DNA from: a virus
Length of the DNA stretch: 33,348 nt
Virus record (IMG/VR): IMGVR_UViG_3300042861_000720
Coordinates: 1-33,348 of that record
Reading direction: 5' to 3' (one strand)
Shown here: in pieces, positions 11,119 to 25,300 of the stretch
Numbering within the stretch: position 1 is the stretch's first letter
How the letters are laid out: each line of letters starts with the position of its first letter
Translations under genes and position numbers: made by a program
Notes under the pieces: generated by a model
Told to the model about the DNA's origin: nothing
The model's input: only the letters and a program-made list of their open reading frames with translations
Database searches by the model: none

Positions 11119-11799
11119 ATGGAAAAAATTGATATTGCTAATTTTATTGGTACAAAACACAACAGACTTACAATATTGAAAGAAGTAGAACCTGTTTTAT
11201 ACAAAAAAGGAAAAGCTAGAAGAGTATTATGTAAATGTGAGTGTGGTAAAGAAAAAGTTATAGATTTTAATTCTATAAGAACAGGTAAAAGTAAATCTTG
11301 TGGATGTTTAAGTAAAGAAACATCTACTAAATTACATACTACTCATGGTTTAGCAATGTTATCTGCAGGAGTAAGACATCCTGATTATTGTATTTGGATG
11401 AAAATGAAATCAAGATGTTTAAACCTTAATGATAAATCTTATAGTAATTATGGAGGTAGAGGTATTAAAGTTTGTGAAGCTTGGCAAAAATCTTTTGTAA
11501 CATTTATAGATGATTTAGGCTGGAGACCAAATAAAAAATACTCTTTAGAACGAATAGACTATAACAAAGATTATTGTCCTGAGAACTGTAAATGGATTCT
11601 CAAATCAGAACAAACTAAAAACTGTAGAAGAGTAAAACTTATTTCTTATAATGGTAAAGAACATTGTCTAACTGACTTATGTAAACTATTAGGTTTAGTA
11701 TATTCTACTATGAGACATAGAGTTTATGATTTAGGTATTCCATTTGAAGAGGCTATAAAATATCCTCAACATTATAAATTTAAAAAACAAATAAAATGA
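11119..11799 (+). CDS. free-standing HNH-type homing endonuclease
   Basis: The 226-residue protein has an N-terminal zinc ribbon (CKCECG near residue 40 and SKSCGC near 73), then the block DYCIWMKMKSRCLNLNDKSYSNYGGRGIKVCEAW...SLERIDYNKDYCPENCKWI typical of phage HNH-related endonucleases, and a C-terminal DNA-binding part (YNGKEHCLTDLCKLLGLVYSTMRHRV). Such proteins cut one or both strands of phage DNA lacking the gene and spread by repair. It lies between helicase and small genes without interrupting either: its own promoter precedes it and its stop overlaps the next start. A lower-confidence alternative is a role in phage DNA processing. Confidence 0.8.
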   Translation: MEKIDIANFIGTKHNRLTILKEVEPVLYKKGKARRVLCKCECGKEKVIDFNSIRTGKSKSCGCLSKETSTKLHTTHGLAMLSAGVRHPDYCIWMKMKSRCLNLNDKSYSNYGGRGIKVCEAWQKSFVTFIDDLGWRPNKKYSLERIDYNKDYCPENCKWILKSEQTKNCRRVKLISYNGKEHCLTDLCKLLGLVYSTMRHRVYDLGIPFEEAIKYPQHYKFKKQIK

Positions 11800-12600: not shown

Positions 12601-13673
12601 CAAAAACAGAAATACAAGAAACTATAATTAATACAATTATAGGGCATAACTGTAGAGGAATTATTCTTTCAAGTGTTAGAAGTGGTAAAACTAGAATATT
12701 GTTAAATTCTATTAAAAAACAATCTAAAAGAAAAGACATAAAAGTATTGTTGTTATATCCTAACATTGATATTAAAAAATCTTGGGAGAATGAATGTGAT
12801 TTAATAGGTTATCATCCAGACATTACATATTGCACATTTGCTTCTATTGGTAAAGTGAAACAATTTGGTTGGGACTTTGTAATATTTGATGAAGCTCATT
12901 TATTAGGAGAAGAAAATCAATTGCCTATTGCAGGAGAAATAGCAAAGAGTAATGATTATGTAATGTTTGCTTCTGGTACATACAATAATGATACACTTTC
13001 TGATATAATGATGTACACAGGAATGGACTTAATAGTTAATTATAGTACAGATGAAGCAATTAAAGATGGAATAGTGAGTGATTACACTATTTATATACAC
13101 AAATTTAAATTAGACACCTTAAAAAAAGTAGAGTATGGGAGAGTAAAAAAATGGACATCAACAGAACAGAAAGAATGCAACAGATTAACCAATAGAGTTA
13201 TGTTGTCTACTGGCCAACAGAAAATGTTTGCTTCTTTAGAGAGAATGAGATTTATAAATTCTTGTCAGTCTTTAATAGATACAGTGAATAAATGGATTGC
13301 TAAAAACGAAGATAAAAGATTTATATTGTTTAGCTCTGATGAAAAAACAGGACTTAGATATAATCTCCCAATGTTTAATAGCAAGAGTAAAGATGACACA
13401 ATATTAAAACAATTCCAACAAGGAGAAATAAATCAATTATGTCTTCTAAAGAAGGCATCAGCAGGTGTAACCTTTCCAAATCTTGAGAATATATTAGTTA
13501 CAGCCATTAATAGTAATGGAGAAAACCTTGAGCAAATGATTGGAAGAAGTTTGTTAAAAGATTGTGACAATTCATCAAATATTCATATCTTTGTTTCTAG
13601 TGAAACTTTTCAACTTAAGTGGTTAAGTAATTCTCTACAAAACATTGATAAATCTAAAATTGTTTATTTGTAA
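12597..13673 (+). CDS. SF2 DNA/RNA helicase
   Basis: The 358-residue protein has the superfamily 2 motif set: motif I SSVRSGKT (25-32), a DEAH box VIFDEAH (95-101), a motif III-like FASGT, and a motif VI EQMIGRSLLKD near the C-terminus. It is compact beside T4 UvsW or SNF2-type phage helicases, with no obvious extra domain. Likely roles are branch migration, origin unwinding or replication restart. The C-terminus looks complete. The following GIY-YIG gene begins inside the stop codon (TAATG), so that mobile gene has become translationally coupled to it. Confidence 0.85.
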   Translation: MTKTEIQETIINTIIGHNCRGIILSSVRSGKTRILLNSIKKQSKRKDIKVLLLYPNIDIKKSWENECDLIGYHPDITYCTFASIGKVKQFGWDFVIFDEAHLLGEENQLPIAGEIAKSNDYVMFASGTYNNDTLSDIMMYTGMDLIVNYSTDEAIKDGIVSDYTIYIHKFKLDTLKKVEYGRVKKWTSTEQKECNRLTNRVMLSTGQQKMFASLERMRFINSCQSLIDTVNKWIAKNEDKRFILFSSDEKTGLRYNLPMFNSKSKDDTILKQFQQGEINQLCLLKKASAGVTFPNLENILVTAINSNGENLEQMIGRSLLKDCDNSSNIHIFVSSETFQLKWLSNSLQNIDKSKIVYL

Positions 13674-14533
13674 TGAAAATATTAGGAATATATATTATAA
13701 CTAATCTTATTAATAATAAATATTATATAGGAAGCTCTAAGTCTGTCTTAAACAGATTAAGTTGGCATAAAAGCCATTTAAAGTCAAAAACGCATCATAA
13801 CGAACACTTACAAAAAGCATATAATAAATATGGGGAAAATTCTTTTACTTTTGAACTACTAGAAGAATACAAAAATGAAAAAGTGTTGTTTTCTTTAGAA
13901 AATTGGTGGTGTAATATGTTAAACACTTATAATAGAGAATATGGTTATAATATACAGCCTATAAATCCTGAAGGAATTCCTAGTCTATCTGAAGAAACTA
14001 AACTTAAAATATCTAAATCAAATAAAGGAAGAAAACATAGTGATGATACAAAACAAAAAATAGGATTAACTAAATTAGGTAATACTTATTTTAAAGATAA
14101 AAGTCATAGTGTTGAAACAAAAAATAAACTTAGAGAAATTAATTTAGGCAAAACACATTCAAATGAAACTAAAGAAAAAATTAGGCAAATTAATTTAGGT
14201 AAAAAACAATCAGAAGAAACTAAATTAAAAAGAAGTAAATCATTAACAGGTTATAAGCATACTGAAGAAACAAAGAAAAAACTTTCTATACATAGATTAA
14301 ATAATCCATTATGTCCTAATCTAGGTAAAAAATTGTCTAAAGAATCTATTGAAAAAAGATCTTTAAAAAGACTAATACCTATTAATCAGTATGATTTAGA
14401 TATGGTGTTTATAAAAACTTGGAATAGTACAACAGAAGCTGCTAAAACTTTAAATTTAAGTAAAAGTAATATATCAATGTGTTGCACAGGTAAAAGAAAT
14501 TATGCAGGAGGTTTTATATGGAAAAAACAATAA
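13673..14533 (+). CDS. GIY-YIG homing endonuclease with NUMOD repeats
   Basis: The N-terminal nuclease domain shows GIY (5-7), YIG (18-20), an arginine at 28 and the later FTFELLEEY segment with the catalytic-type glutamate. Residues about 103-235 are a string of roughly 20-residue NUMOD3-like repeats of the form G+xHSxETKxK (for example GRKHSDDTKQK, GKTHSNETKEK, GYKHTEETKKK). The C-terminus (INQYDLDMVFIKTWNSTTEAAKTL...GGFIWKK) is a NUMOD1 module. The repeats are DNA-binding units of homing endonucleases. The gene is free-standing, sits directly behind the SF2 helicase gene with a one-base overlap and shows no damage. Confidence 0.9.
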   Translation: MKILGIYIITNLINNKYYIGSSKSVLNRLSWHKSHLKSKTHHNEHLQKAYNKYGENSFTFELLEEYKNEKVLFSLENWWCNMLNTYNREYGYNIQPINPEGIPSLSEETKLKISKSNKGRKHSDDTKQKIGLTKLGNTYFKDKSHSVETKNKLREINLGKTHSNETKEKIRQINLGKKQSEETKLKRSKSLTGYKHTEETKKKLSIHRLNNPLCPNLGKKLSKESIEKRSLKRLIPINQYDLDMVFIKTWNSTTEAAKTLNLSKSNISMCCTGKRNYAGGFIWKKQ

Positions 14534-20180: not shown

Positions 20181-20200
20181 TTTAAAACTTAGAAAAATGA
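20180..20200 (+). repeat. 21-base leader repeat, copy 2
   Basis: This is the exact second copy of 19921-19941, overlapping the rIIA start codon. An AAGGAGG at 20160-20166 lies about 30 bases upstream of the ATG, too far to act as a ribosome-binding site. Confidence 0.6.
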
Positions 20201-22506
20201 TTTTAGAAAAACAAAAAGAAGCACACATTTTACAAGAAGGAGAATCACAAGATTCAATTGGAATGTCATTAGACTTAGATTCTGCTCAGATATTGATGCA
20301 GATGTTAAGTAAGAATCTATATTCAGATTCAATAGGCTCGACTATTAGAGAATGGTCAAGTAATGCTTTAGATAGTCATAGAAGAGTTGAAAGTGACAAA
20401 CCTATTATAGTATCATTTACTAGAAACTCTAGTGATAACTATGAGTTTTCAGTTGAAGATTTTGGGTTAGGATTAGATGCTGATGATGTTACAAATGTGA
20501 TTAGTAAATATGGTAAAAGCACTAAACGTACAAGTAATAATGAGTTAGGAATGTTTGGCTTAGGATTTAAATCAGGTCTTGCATATTCTAGTAGTTTCTA
20601 CTTTATATGCAGAAAAGATGGTGTAGAACGTAAGTATATGATGTATGAAGGAGAAGATGTTAATACAATTGATTTGTTGTATGAACAACCTACTACAGAA
20701 TGTAATGGTGTAAAAATGATATTGCCTGTTAAGTGGCAAGATAGAAGTGATTTTATCACTAAGATTAACGAACAACTTGCTTATTTTGAAAATGTATATT
20801 TTAATGTAGAAGGAATCAATAATGATTTTTTAATTCATAGAAATGAAATATTCCAATTCTCTGAATTATCTAAACAAAATGAATTACATATATGTTTAGA
20901 TAATGTTTATTATCCTCTCGATTTTACTAAATTAGGGATAGATAAAATAAATATTCCTGTTGCTTTGAGATTTTCTCTAAGCGATGGATTATTTCCTACA
21001 CCTAACAGAGAAACATTGCATTACAATAAGGACTCTAAACAAGTTATTCTTGATAAAATAGCTAAGCTTGCTGATTATATAATTGATAAATATAATGAGT
21101 CAATTACAGACACAACAAATATTAAAGAAGTGTTTGAATATTATAGTTCTAATTCTAAAAGTGTAAATATTCTTAATCAAAATTGTGAAGTTACACAACT
21201 ATTGAAATTTACAGTGAAGAGAATAAAAGAACCAAAGCTTAAAGGTATTGAACTTCTTAATTTAAAGAGTTTATATAAACACAAAGACTATATTCTTGGA
21301 GAATATGAAACTATGTATAAACTATCTCGTAATAAAATGATGGATTGTAAAAACTATTGGGATAAGAAAATTAAACCAAATGATGTTAAAGATGGGAAGT
21401 ATTATACATATGATGGTGTACTTGGAGGTAATAAGCGTCTTTACATGAAAGAATTATTAAATACAGGAACTGGTTATTATGGGCCTGAATATTATTTCTG
21501 TAAAAAGAAAACTAATTACACTCTTGGAGATAGAAGCTCTAGGGGATCAGATACATATTTTGAGATTCTTGAATTAGGAATGTATTCTAGAAAAGAATGG
21601 AGACAACGTATACAAGAATTTCAAAAGATTCAAGAAATGTACACTTCTTATTTCAAAAATGTTGATGATATAACTATTCCTAAAGATTGGCTTGATTCTC
21701 GTAAAAAAGTTTATTCTAAAGGATCATCTGTCTCAAGAGTAGATGAAAACGGTAAACGTATTATTAAACTACAAGGAGAGATTGTAGGTAAGATAGGTGT
21801 TGAATTAGCAAGATATAATGATGGGAGAAAATGTAAATTTGTTCCAACAACATTAAAACTTGCCGATATTTCTAAACAAAAGTTTTTAACTGTATATGCT
21901 CATCATGATGATGCTTTAAAAGTTGATCCATTGTATGAAATATTTGCAAAACAAAAACTTAAAGTGATGACATTCTCTACTAGAGAAATGAACATCCTTA
22001 AAGATATAGAAATACACAACCTAATACCTTATGATAAATTTATGGAAGGAAATAATAAAATGTTTAAAAGAATTGTCACAGCTACATTGATATACAGATT
22101 GACAAGAAAGTATAACCATGCTTTTAACTCATCTTATAAACTAGAAGGAAATTGTACTGATTTGTATAATAAACTCAATAGATTAAATGATTATCAAAAA
22201 ACACATTATAGACATTGTGATGATGAAATATTTAAAGCAATGTTAGAATTAGCTGATGCTAATAATTTATATGATCATGAAATTTACTATTTGTATAAAG
22301 AAGTTGAAGATGTTCTTGAAAAACTTCCTTTCATTAATAATTTAATGAGATATGTTAATTCATACAATGATGATGTTATATCATCTATAGTAGATTTGAT
22401 GAAATATTATAAGTATAAAGTGGATTTAGAGAAGTATAATCTTAGAATAGATGATGAAATTGTTACACCAGTAACAGATGAGTTAATAGAAGAATTAGCA
22501 AATTAA
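20197..22506 (+). CDS. rIIA: rIIA-like protein (GHKL ATPase)
   Basis: The 769-residue protein begins with a Bergerat-fold ATP-binding domain: the N box REWSSNALDSH (E52, N56, D59), the G1 box VEDFGLGLD (D88, G90, G92) with a conserved ISKYGKSTK after it, and the G2 box ELGMFGLGFKSGL (117-128). Size and gene order, directly before an rIIB-like gene, agree with T4 rIIA (about 725 residues). In T4, rIIA and rIIB form a membrane-associated pair that protects the phage from lambda Rex-type exclusion; the biochemical role is not settled. A strong terminator follows, so rIIB is expressed from read-through or separately. Confidence 0.85.
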   Translation: MILEKQKEAHILQEGESQDSIGMSLDLDSAQILMQMLSKNLYSDSIGSTIREWSSNALDSHRRVESDKPIIVSFTRNSSDNYEFSVEDFGLGLDADDVTNVISKYGKSTKRTSNNELGMFGLGFKSGLAYSSSFYFICRKDGVERKYMMYEGEDVNTIDLLYEQPTTECNGVKMILPVKWQDRSDFITKINEQLAYFENVYFNVEGINNDFLIHRNEIFQFSELSKQNELHICLDNVYYPLDFTKLGIDKINIPVALRFSLSDGLFPTPNRETLHYNKDSKQVILDKIAKLADYIIDKYNESITDTTNIKEVFEYYSSNSKSVNILNQNCEVTQLLKFTVKRIKEPKLKGIELLNLKSLYKHKDYILGEYETMYKLSRNKMMDCKNYWDKKIKPNDVKDGKYYTYDGVLGGNKRLYMKELLNTGTGYYGPEYYFCKKKTNYTLGDRSSRGSDTYFEILELGMYSRKEWRQRIQEFQKIQEMYTSYFKNVDDITIPKDWLDSRKKVYSKGSSVSRVDENGKRIIKLQGEIVGKIGVELARYNDGRKCKFVPTTLKLADISKQKFLTVYAHHDDALKVDPLYEIFAKQKLKVMTFSTREMNILKDIEIHNLIPYDKFMEGNNKMFKRIVTATLIYRLTRKYNHAFNSSYKLEGNCTDLYNKLNRLNDYQKTHYRHCDDEIFKAMLELADANNLYDHEIYYLYKEVEDVLEKLPFINNLMRYVNSYNDDVISSIVDLMKYYKYKVDLEKYNLRIDDEIVTPVTDELIEELAN

Positions 22507-22581: not shown

Positions 22582-23744
22582 ATGGAAAACAAATTTATGT
22601 CCTTAGAGTGGTTTAAAAACTCTACAGAAAGAGCAATTGAAAATGTAATTTCTAAAAAATTAGAGAATTTAATGGAACAAAAAGGAGAAACAAATGTTTC
22701 TCAAGATGGTCCATTATATAAAAATCTTAAATTGGTAAATGACACTCTCACTATTGTTACAAACAATGGTAATGTATTGAGTAAGTCAGAAGCTACAGAA
22801 GAAGATTATCATGCAATAGTTAATGCTAAAACATTTGATGAAATCTTTAATATTATATCAACAGCTAAAGTGACTGATGAAAGAAAGGCACATGAGGCTG
22901 AAGTAAAAAGAATGCAAGCCTTAAAGAAAGGAATTAAACTTCTTGCAGATTTAGAAGACTTCACTGTAGAAGAAAATTCTGTATTCTTAACAGGAACATC
23001 TAGAAGCCTTCCTCAATTACTTGTAGAGAAGTTTATAGAAGTGGTAGATAGAGTTGGAGAAGAGCTAGACTATCCTTGGGAATTGCAAGTTAAACTTAAC
23101 CAAGATGAAGAATATCTTTCTCTTAAAAGATTCTTTATGTGGTGTTGTTTAAATCCTAGAGCTGAAGTTGCTAATGAATTGTATAGATTCTTAACAGAGA
23201 ATAGCTTTAGAATTACTAAGCAAGGATTCTTTGTAGCTCTTAGAAATGTTGTAACACTTCATGGATCTCCAGAGCTTGTACATTTTATTAGTAATGCTTA
23301 TAACAAGGTTAAAGCTGTATGGAAGAAAAATCCAAATGAATATACAATTTTCTTACAAGATGGAGAATACAAACTTGTACATGATGATAAATTGTATGAA
23401 GAAAAAACTCATACATCAACAACATGTCCAGATTGCGATGGAGAAGGACAATTCTGGAATGATTATGATTGTAATGAAGAAGACTATGAAGATGATATAG
23501 AATTATGTGAAACATGTGATGGTACAGGAGAAGTGGAAGAATATGAATATAAAACTATAGTGCCTATAAACCATGGACAAAGAATTGGAGGATTAACAGA
23601 ATTGTATCTCGATCTTCCTAACAGAGCAGAGAATAGATTTACAGATGATTGGACTAAAACATTTGATATTCGTATTGGTAGAACTGTTAGTATGCCTAAA
23701 GAACAATGTAACTGGAGTACACAAGATTGTGCTGCTGCAGGGCT
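22582..23744 (+). CDS. rIIB: rIIB-like protein, exon 1
   Basis: This is the first 1163 bases of a gene continued at 24922-25300 after splicing; joined, they encode 513 residues. Read without splicing the frame stops at 23766, inside the intron. Exon 1 ends in the rIIB-typical ...QDCAAAGL (compare the C..GLH motif of T4 rIIB), and exon 2 supplies the H. An unusual segment at 282-316 holds two CxxCxGxG motifs (CPDCDGEG at 282-289, CETCDGTG at 309-316), as in DnaJ zinc fingers. The N-terminus is helical. It pairs with the rIIA gene upstream. The start at 22582 has the ATTAAAACAATGG context also seen at 19307. Confidence 0.85.
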
Positions 23745-23825
23745 AAAATATGTGGCCTCCCTGTAAGTAATTACAAGGTAATAAATTGGGCAAAAACGGT
23801 AAAGGCTAAAATAGTTTAAAATAAA

Positions 23826-23857
23826 TTTGGAAAATTAAAAATTTTGTTATATGTTTG
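23826..23857 (+). promoter_or_regulatory. promoter of the intron endonuclease gene
   Basis: TTTG (23826-23829), a 20-base spacer and TATGTTTG (23850-23857) match the Bacteroidota promoter exactly. It lies inside the intron, 27 bases upstream of the endonuclease ATG, so the gene can be expressed independently of rIIB. Confidence 0.6.
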
Positions 23858-23884
23858 GGTGTAATCCTAAAATAACAAAAAAAA

Positions 23885-24742
23885 ATGGCTAGAACAACAA
23901 ATATTCCTTACGAGGAAATAATTAAACTAAATCAAGAAAAAGGTATACCTATACCTGAATTGGCTAAATTATATAACATAAAACAAACTTATATTTATGG
24001 TTATTTACATAGAAGAAAAATTTCTTCTAATAAAATGATTCAAGATAGAAGAAAAAATAAACCGATAGATACTTTTTTAGATGTAATTGATACAGAAGAA
24101 AAAGCTTATTTCTTAGGGTTAATGATGAGTGATGGTTATATAAATGAATCTAGTACAAAAGGGTATATTTATGAAAGATTTGGTATTTTTATAAAAGATA
24201 GCGATAAAGAAGTAATTGAAAAAATATGTTCAATTATGGGGGTAAAAGCATCTTATAGAAAAAGTACAAAAATGATTGGATTTAATGTTGGTTCTATTCA
24301 AATTATATCAAGACTAAATGAATTAGGAATCTCTAAGAATAAAACATACAAAGAATTATCTATACCAAAAATAGATAAAAATTTAGTAAGACATTTCATT
24401 AGAGGTTATTTTGATGGAGATGGTAGCATTTCTGTAAGAAGTTCTAGACCAAATCAAGTTCAAGTTTATATTTGTGGAATATGTAAAAGTTTTTTAGAAG
24501 AAGTTTCTGAAATATTAAATAAAGAAAATATTTCTTCTAAGCTTTATACAGAAGTTAGAAATAAAGAAAACAGAAAAAACATGTTTACTTTAAGAATAAC
24601 AACACACAAAGATAGAATTTTGTTTTTTGATTATCTCTACAAAGATTCAAATATAAAAATTGATAGAAAGTATTCCAAATACAAAAATTATTATGCTAAT
24701 ACCGTGCTAAACATAGAAAGTAAAAAATCTATGTCAGTGTAA
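23885..24742 (+). CDS. intron-encoded LAGLIDADG homing endonuclease
   Basis: The 285-residue protein has an N-terminal helix-turn-helix (IPIPELAKLYNIKQTYIYGYLHRRKIS, about 21-47) and two LAGLIDADG motifs: AYFLGLMMSDGYI (74-86, D83) and HFIRGYFDGDGSI (170-182, D179). One protein therefore carries both active-site halves and probably cuts as a monomer at the intron-free rIIB site. The gene lies wholly inside the intron between the catalytic-core halves. It is intact, suggesting recent mobility. A possible maturase role cannot be excluded. Confidence 0.92.
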   Translation: MARTTNIPYEEIIKLNQEKGIPIPELAKLYNIKQTYIYGYLHRRKISSNKMIQDRRKNKPIDTFLDVIDTEEKAYFLGLMMSDGYINESSTKGYIYERFGIFIKDSDKEVIEKICSIMGVKASYRKSTKMIGFNVGSIQIISRLNELGISKNKTYKELSIPKIDKNLVRHFIRGYFDGDGSISVRSSRPNQVQVYICGICKSFLEEVSEILNKENISSKLYTEVRNKENRKNMFTLRITTHKDRILFFDYLYKDSNIKIDRKYSKYKNYYANTVLNIESKKSMSV

Positions 24743-24921
24743 CGCATAGTGGGTGAAACTTAGAAATAAGAATATAAACCACCACGAGTGTCCGACACCC
24801 TTATGGGGTGAAAATATATGCTGAGCTGTCTGATGATTAAATCAGAATATTCCACAGGCTAGATGGATAAGGAGGAAACTCCCAGAAGTAGAGGATAAAA
24901 AGCCTTTACGATAACAAAATG

Positions 24922-25300
24922 ACATTTTACAGCAAATGAAATACACTACGTAGGTTGTGGTGATCAATCTGTACTTGTTATTATCAATCCTATGAAAATT
25001 GTAGGTATTGGACAACACAAAGGTAGATGTTATGAATATCTTCCAATTATGACTGTTGCAAGAGAAGAAGCTACAAGTATTTTACATGATTTATCATTTG
25101 ATACTCTTGAGCTTGATGAGAGCTATGCTATTAAAGAACTTGAAAGCTTAACAGAAAGAGTGAAAGAAGGTTTTACAGCTGAAGCTAATAAACATCAGTT
25201 TAATCTTCCAACTCTTAGCTCTAATGAATTAGCAGTTATTGTTTCATCTTTAGATGAGATTAAAAATGAAATTAGCAAGCGTATTGTTACAATTGACTAG
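24922..25300 (+). CDS. rIIB: rIIB-like protein, exon 2
   Basis: Exon 2 starts with the last base of a split Leu codon and continues HFTANEIHYVGCGDQSVLVIINPMKIVGIGQHKGRCYEYLP, which matches the conserved rIIB pattern 'GLH.......VLVNP.DVV.....+.RCY.Y'. The rest (to residue 513) is helical and acidic, as in T4 rIIB. An ATG at 24992 inside the exon could be mistaken for a separate 102-residue gene, but the open frame runs back to 24922 with no stop and the family match spans the junction. Confidence 0.85.

Follow-up and report, generated by a model that had tools for sequence, protein, structure and literature searches.

A putative mobile group I intron with its own endonuclease gene in the rIIB gene of an uncultured phage

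The rIIB gene of the virus considered here comes in two open pieces, and the question raised by this locus is what the insert that separates them might be. It had been predicted, from the letters of the window alone (the window is the whole stretch of 33,348 nucleotides that was analysed), that splicing from 23744 to 24922 would remove a group I intron and restore a protein of 513 residues. The exons, 22582-23744 and 24922-25300, indeed join in a single frame of that length, and the spliced protein is RIIB: it matches PHROG 609 in a profile search (E 6.4e-14), as do 14 of 14 RIIB relatives, and rIIA lies directly upstream, which places the gene in the RIIB family. The same protein is continuous in intron-free relatives. 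Among 80 rIIB relatives collected from viral contigs, the junction, crossed by the invariant G387-L388-H389, is read through unbroken in 78 (counting L012, whose contig ends 7 residues past the junction), while the two others, L011 and L014, carry an intron; the alignment to homologues that had been proposed as a check is thus continuous across the predicted site. With the spliced protein as query, the distant rIIB of the crAss-like phage cr116_1 was recovered, among others; exon 1 alone as query matched no named phage, and a scan of cellular genomes reaching close relatives only found none for RIIB. The closest matches of the window's DNA polymerase, with some 30% identity, come from crAss-like phages and a Leptolyngbya phage. 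RIIB of this group also displays a pair of DnaJ-like CxxCxGxG zinc motifs (residues 275-323, window 23404-23550), near-invariant in relatives.

Read from DNA alone, the splice boundary has a 1-nt ambiguity, because an A comes after both sites; it is fixed by the U.G pair at the 5' splice site and by the terminal G. P1 pairs GGGCU (23740-23744) with GGCCU (23754-23758), the splice-site pair being U23744.G23754, and consists of 5 pairs only, two of these G.U. P10 pairs ACAU at the start of exon 2 (24922-24925) with AUGU of the guide (23750-23753), and the last intron base is G24921. All three predicted elements are present. The early end of the unspliced product was also borne out: the frame meets a stop 22 nt into the intron and would yield 394 residues. 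Both exons are still open and conserved up to their last residue, and splicing restores the Gly-Leu-His motif.

The insert escapes the standard tool. A covariance search over 23745-24921 had been suggested to confirm the intron, yet RF00028, the Rfam group I family, has no match in the window or in the intron alone, either at the gathering score or with E up to 10. The weak matches in these scans (microRNA families, SAM-II, ROOL) were judged to be due to chance, and a group II intron was set aside, its ends being unfitting and no group II family appearing among the Rfam scan matches. A short relative devoid of an open reading frame, located in a tape-measure gene (L091), has a 45-nt 3' block identical to that of the window; it led to a conserved block, CACGAGTGTCCGACA, and scanning for this block retrieved 57 viral DNA stretches, many with the same flanking elements (matches to the 3'-block pattern in L088 and L090 are chance coding matches). 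A structure was derived by hand from 22 of these introns, with the window excluded (alignment A1): 97.8% of the cells are paired and 35 of the 46 pairs have changed on both sides, while versions slid along the alignment were 28-43% paired and no shuffle came close. The covariance model built from these 22 other phage introns, R1, gives one match in the window, at 24698-24916, with 153.3 bits and E 4.5e-37. It also matches both other rIIB introns and, more weakly, introns called by RF00028 in L084 and cr116_1, which ties the class of the window's intron to group I through an independent model. A second alignment (A2), in which the 5' half was added, comprises 17 sequences, the window included, and covers P3, P4, P5, P6, P7, P7.1, P8 and P9.2; 98.2% of its cells are paired, P3/P7 pseudoknot included, with two-sided change in 28 of 46 pairs.

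In the R1 alignment all core helices of the window's intron are intact (Table 1). P3 is almost invariant, so that taken alone it is weakly informative. P7 is of a different kind: the helix is 100% paired in A1, its pair beyond the bulge is AU in 13 sequences, GC in 8 and CG in 1, and the G-C pair of the guanosine site never varies. We take this covariation around an invariant guanosine-site pair as the decisive detail for group I identity, as far as sequence comparison can tell. In A1, 4 of the 5 pairs of P7.1 have changed on both sides, and this extra helix between P7 and P3' assigns the intron to subgroup IA, with one composite hairpin seen at P7.1/P7.2. The P9 hairpin region differs in L082. 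Two early proposals were abandoned: a long-range stem joining 23799-23807 to the 3' end (a 9-bp complement), of which the 3' strand forms the covarying local hairpin P9.2 in relatives, and a placement of P7/P8 within 24820-24860, overturned by comparison with the tape-measure relative.

Table 1. Features of the rII region and of its intron, in window coordinates
Feature	Position	Strand	Basis or remark
rIIA	20197..22506	+	intron-free in the window; PHROG 612, E 1.2e-55
rIIB exon 1	22582..23744	+	387 codons and two bases of Leu388
P1 exon strand GGGCU	23740..23744	+	U.G at 5' splice site; direct reading
Group I intron, 1177 nt, ends in omega-G	23745..24921	+	covariance model R1; same-site copies in L011, L014
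Internal guide	23750..23758	+	AUGU (P10) then GGCCU (P1); no difference among the three copies
P2 hairpin, UGUAA-guaa-UUACA plus CC/GG	23759..23778	+	simple hairpin, putative; direct reading
In-frame stop TAA	23764..23766	+	read upon intron retention; direct reading
P3 5' strand UUGGGC	23786..23791	+	pairs with GUCCGA 24790-24795, pseudoknot; 100% of A2 cells paired
P4 5' strand ACGGU	23796..23800	+	pairs with ACCGU 24701-24705; UA/AU two-sided changes
P5 5' strand GGC	23804..23806	+	pairs with GCU 24695-24697; all three pairs with two-sided changes across A2
Hairpin just 5' of endonuclease start codon	23842..23880	+	-10.8 kcal/mol, z -3.6; kept in L081
LAGLIDADG homing endonuclease gene, 285 aa	23885..24742	+	in loop L5; overlaps ribozyme core
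P6 (GCU/AGU) and P6a (ACAUAGA/UCUAUGU)	24706..24738	+	covariation alignments
P7 5' strand A-(bulged C)-GCAUA, guanosine-binding site	24742..24748	+	partner UAUGCU 24817-24822
P7.1 (GUGG/CCAC), inner hairpin 24759-24770	24749..24782	+	between P7 and P3', IA-type extra helix
P3' (GUCCGA) then P8 (CACCC/GGGUG)	24790..24810	+	covariation alignments
P9 domain	24826..24885	+	CUG/CAG closing; inner hairpins CUGAU/AUCAG, GGAG-GAAA-CUCC; R1 alignment
P9.2 hairpin GUAGAGG/CCUUUAC	24888..24909	+	two-sided changes in 6 of 7 pairs (A1)
rIIB exon 2	24922..25300	+	begins with last base of Leu388 codon

The intron houses a gene, absent from the original prediction, whose product matches Pfam LAGLIDADG_3 (E 1.3e-17) and the endonucleases of PHROG 4645 (E 1.3e-48). 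The two LAGLIDADG motifs, YFLGLMMSDGYI and FIRGYFDGDGSI, occupy residues 75-86 and 171-182, with the acidic residues Asp83 and Asp179, and the N-terminus has an HTH-like stretch. Coding sequence and ribozyme are intertwined: the last 16 codons or so double as P5', P4', P6 and P6a, the stop codon provides the first base of P7, and the last 45 coding bases show no difference among the three rIIB copies. With dN/dS at 0.18-0.24 (NG86), the gene has been under selection for a working protein. No solved structure was matched by sequence, and a scan of cellular genomes that reaches close relatives only returned none for the endonuclease. The hairpin just upstream of the start codon could possibly control translation of the endonuclease. 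The window has two more homing-type endonuclease genes, at 11119-11799 and 13673-14533 (HNH; GIY-YIG with NUMOD motifs), apparently free-standing; at both loci R1 finds no intron.

The three intron-bearing rIIB genes (n=3, all from uncultured phages) have their insert at exactly the same base, and the three introns align end to end, the first 60 bases or so being identical. The introns of L011 and L014 are 96% and 94% identical to that of the window, whereas the corresponding RIIB proteins are only 66-71% identical to the window's. In the RIIB tree the intron-free L001 and L002 are the window's sisters (support 99/93) and the intron carriers are scattered. An intron so much better conserved than the protein encoded by its host gene, with sisters that lack it, has by this comparison moved horizontally. 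The site itself keeps a signature: GGG CTA CAT is present in all three carriers, and together only in intron-bearing genes, the GGG codon being found in 3 of 3 of these and in 0 of 60 distinct intron-free genes; it is also the sole GGG codon in the rIIB gene of the window. These site-specific changes are synonymous and fall exactly on the bases engaged in P1 and P10. Such a pattern is expected from co-conversion during homing, and selection for splicing after arrival would yield the same bases. Three rIIB genes (L001, L002 and L057, residues 389-448) show a divergent exon-2 allele, GLHFAGYTAPYVLCGDTT, which starts at the very position of the intron and is shared between distant genes to a greater degree than their upstream parts are; this allele may be resistant to the endonuclease. 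The core of the original prediction, that the insert at 23745-24921 is a group I intron within rIIB, is supported by the out-of-sample covariance match, by two-sided covariation, by the intron-free homologues and by the exon signature, all of them read from sequence.

We can therefore propose, with a probability of about 0.93, that rIIB hosts a mobile, presumably self-splicing, IA-type group I intron spread by its own LAGLIDADG endonuclease. In the transcript, GGGCU of exon 1 would pair with the internal guide, a guanosine bound in P7 would attack the U.G splice site, and ligation of the exons would produce full-length RIIB. The endonuclease encoded in L5 would have the conserved Gly-Leu-His codons of intron-less rIIB as its target; during repair, the cut gene would receive a copy of the intron with flanking exon bases. 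Splicing, the activity and target of the endonuclease, and this homing route are what we infer from intact parts, cleavage of the intron-less allele being indirectly supported by the spread of the intron and by the exon signature.

A real intron may have decayed, splicing inefficiently and leaving the phage with a RIIB of 394 residues or obliging it to live without full RIIB. The rII genes of T4 are dispensable on most hosts, and reading into the retained intron stops almost at once; early in-frame stops are, however, usual in phage introns. Phage introns that do not splice have also been reported (PMC7344957). Against such decay, all the core helices are intact, the exons have stayed open with conservation reaching their last residue, and the invariant motif is rebuilt by splicing, so that we consider it very unlikely. 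The original prediction had gone in another direction, suggesting that the state of the intron could switch rII function. Truncation of RIIB on retention would fit, as would L014, with introns in both of its rII genes; yet the element has the features of a selfish one with its own endonuclease, its distribution is patchy and the nearest relatives are without intron, so that no such switch is conserved. The suggestion thus finds no support, and we regard it as very improbable. As the window comes from one virus record only, which may be a fragment, one may finally think of an assembly artefact, or of rIIB broken by a free-standing endonuclease gene. This is scarcely credible, because two other assemblies have this insert at the identical base, independent copies that refute it, while a ribozyme core with covariation and an exactly restored frame also speak against it. 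The mobile, IA-type intron remains the reading we retain.

Related phages have introns in the other rII gene as well. Upstream of rIIB, R1 has matches in nine contigs (L008, L012, L014, L015, L016, L060, L064, L068 and L069), where rIIA is split at residue 121/122, within the GHKL ATPase motif, by a different group I intron. These introns measure about 995 nt and contain a LAGLIDADG gene whose product is about 30% identical to that of the window, except for the intron of L064, which has 301 nt, lacks the gene and otherwise corresponds to the L068 intron (98.8-100%). In GenBank, rIIA of crAss-like phage cr116_1 (NC_055882) is also split by a group I intron, which RF00028 detects with 80.8 bits (L156 2713-3007); from our reading of the alignment, the break falls within a few codons of the same site, and the record annotates the rIIA pieces and an 'intron-encoded endonuclease' as separate genes. 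The rIIA introns share with that of the window the association of a group I intron with a LAGLIDADG endonuclease in the rII operon, but they lie in another gene and belong to another subfamily, with the canonical GAUAUAGUCC, their endonuclease being only distantly similar. All seven distinct carriers have GGT|CTA GG at the site. The rIIA genes of L064 (266-2861, with intron) and L065 (3641-5965, without) are about 99.6% identical, and near the site their sole differences are GGA TTG versus GGT CTA, synonymous and at bases of P1/P10; together with the exon signature, this pair preserves a clear trace, left in nature, of an intron gained with co-conversion. One might go further and consider the rII operon as a recurrent homing hot spot, with independent invasions of rIIA (at the GHKL ATPase motif) and of rIIB (at the GLH motif) by different group I introns, at times both in one phage, and a load tolerated, or even used since splicing would tune the timing of RIIA and RIIB, but we deem this proposal very unlikely.

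The kind of intron is known and its mechanism standard. With the IA introns of phages (T4 td, nrdB and nrdD; Twort, SPO1, Bastillevirinae) it shares the P1-P10 layout, the P3/P7 pseudoknot, the bulged P7, omega-G, the additional helix that separates P7 from P3' and a loop-borne endonuclease gene that runs into the core, an overlap described before (PMC11878797). It differs from them in its J8/7-P7', AAAAUAUAUGC rather than the usual AAGAUAUAGUC, in going undetected by the Rfam model, and in its host gene: the phage introns described so far reside for the most part in genes for polymerases, terminases and nucleotide metabolism (PMC11878797). Many introns in core genes are known in the Delta and Zeta groups of crAss-like phages (PMC7886860). 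The introns of the CACGAGUGUCCGACA class, from many viral contigs (L091-L147), have the same core, conserved blocks and helices as the window's intron; where examined, their hosts are other genes such as terminase, capsid, tape-measure or polymerase-like genes, as judged by eye from exon translations. These introns make up a widespread phage group I class with block CACGAGTGTCCGACA, in several host genes, of which the window's member is missed by RF00028. The contig of L003, an rII relative of the window, is free of the rIIB intron, and its member of this class (L118 9491-9754) lies within a polymerase-like gene. The endonuclease belongs to the same double-motif LAGLIDADG family as that of the recA intron of Staphylococcus phage Romulus, with 29.5% identity over 91%, but the target gene is different. 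Searches of the open literature, which reach few subscription journals, turned up no report of rIIA or rIIB with a group I intron, and rIIB, which the original prediction had offered as a new host gene, appears to be one, within the limit set by the split rIIA of cr116_1 already deposited in GenBank.

The sites occupied by group I introns are, as a rule, under functional constraint. The function of RIIA and RIIB is unclear even in T4, and intron sites placed at the most conserved motifs of the two proteins hint at constraint, suggesting that it is strong on both genes in these phages. As the standard Rfam model does not see the window's intron, members of its class may cause rII and other phage genes to be annotated in pieces.
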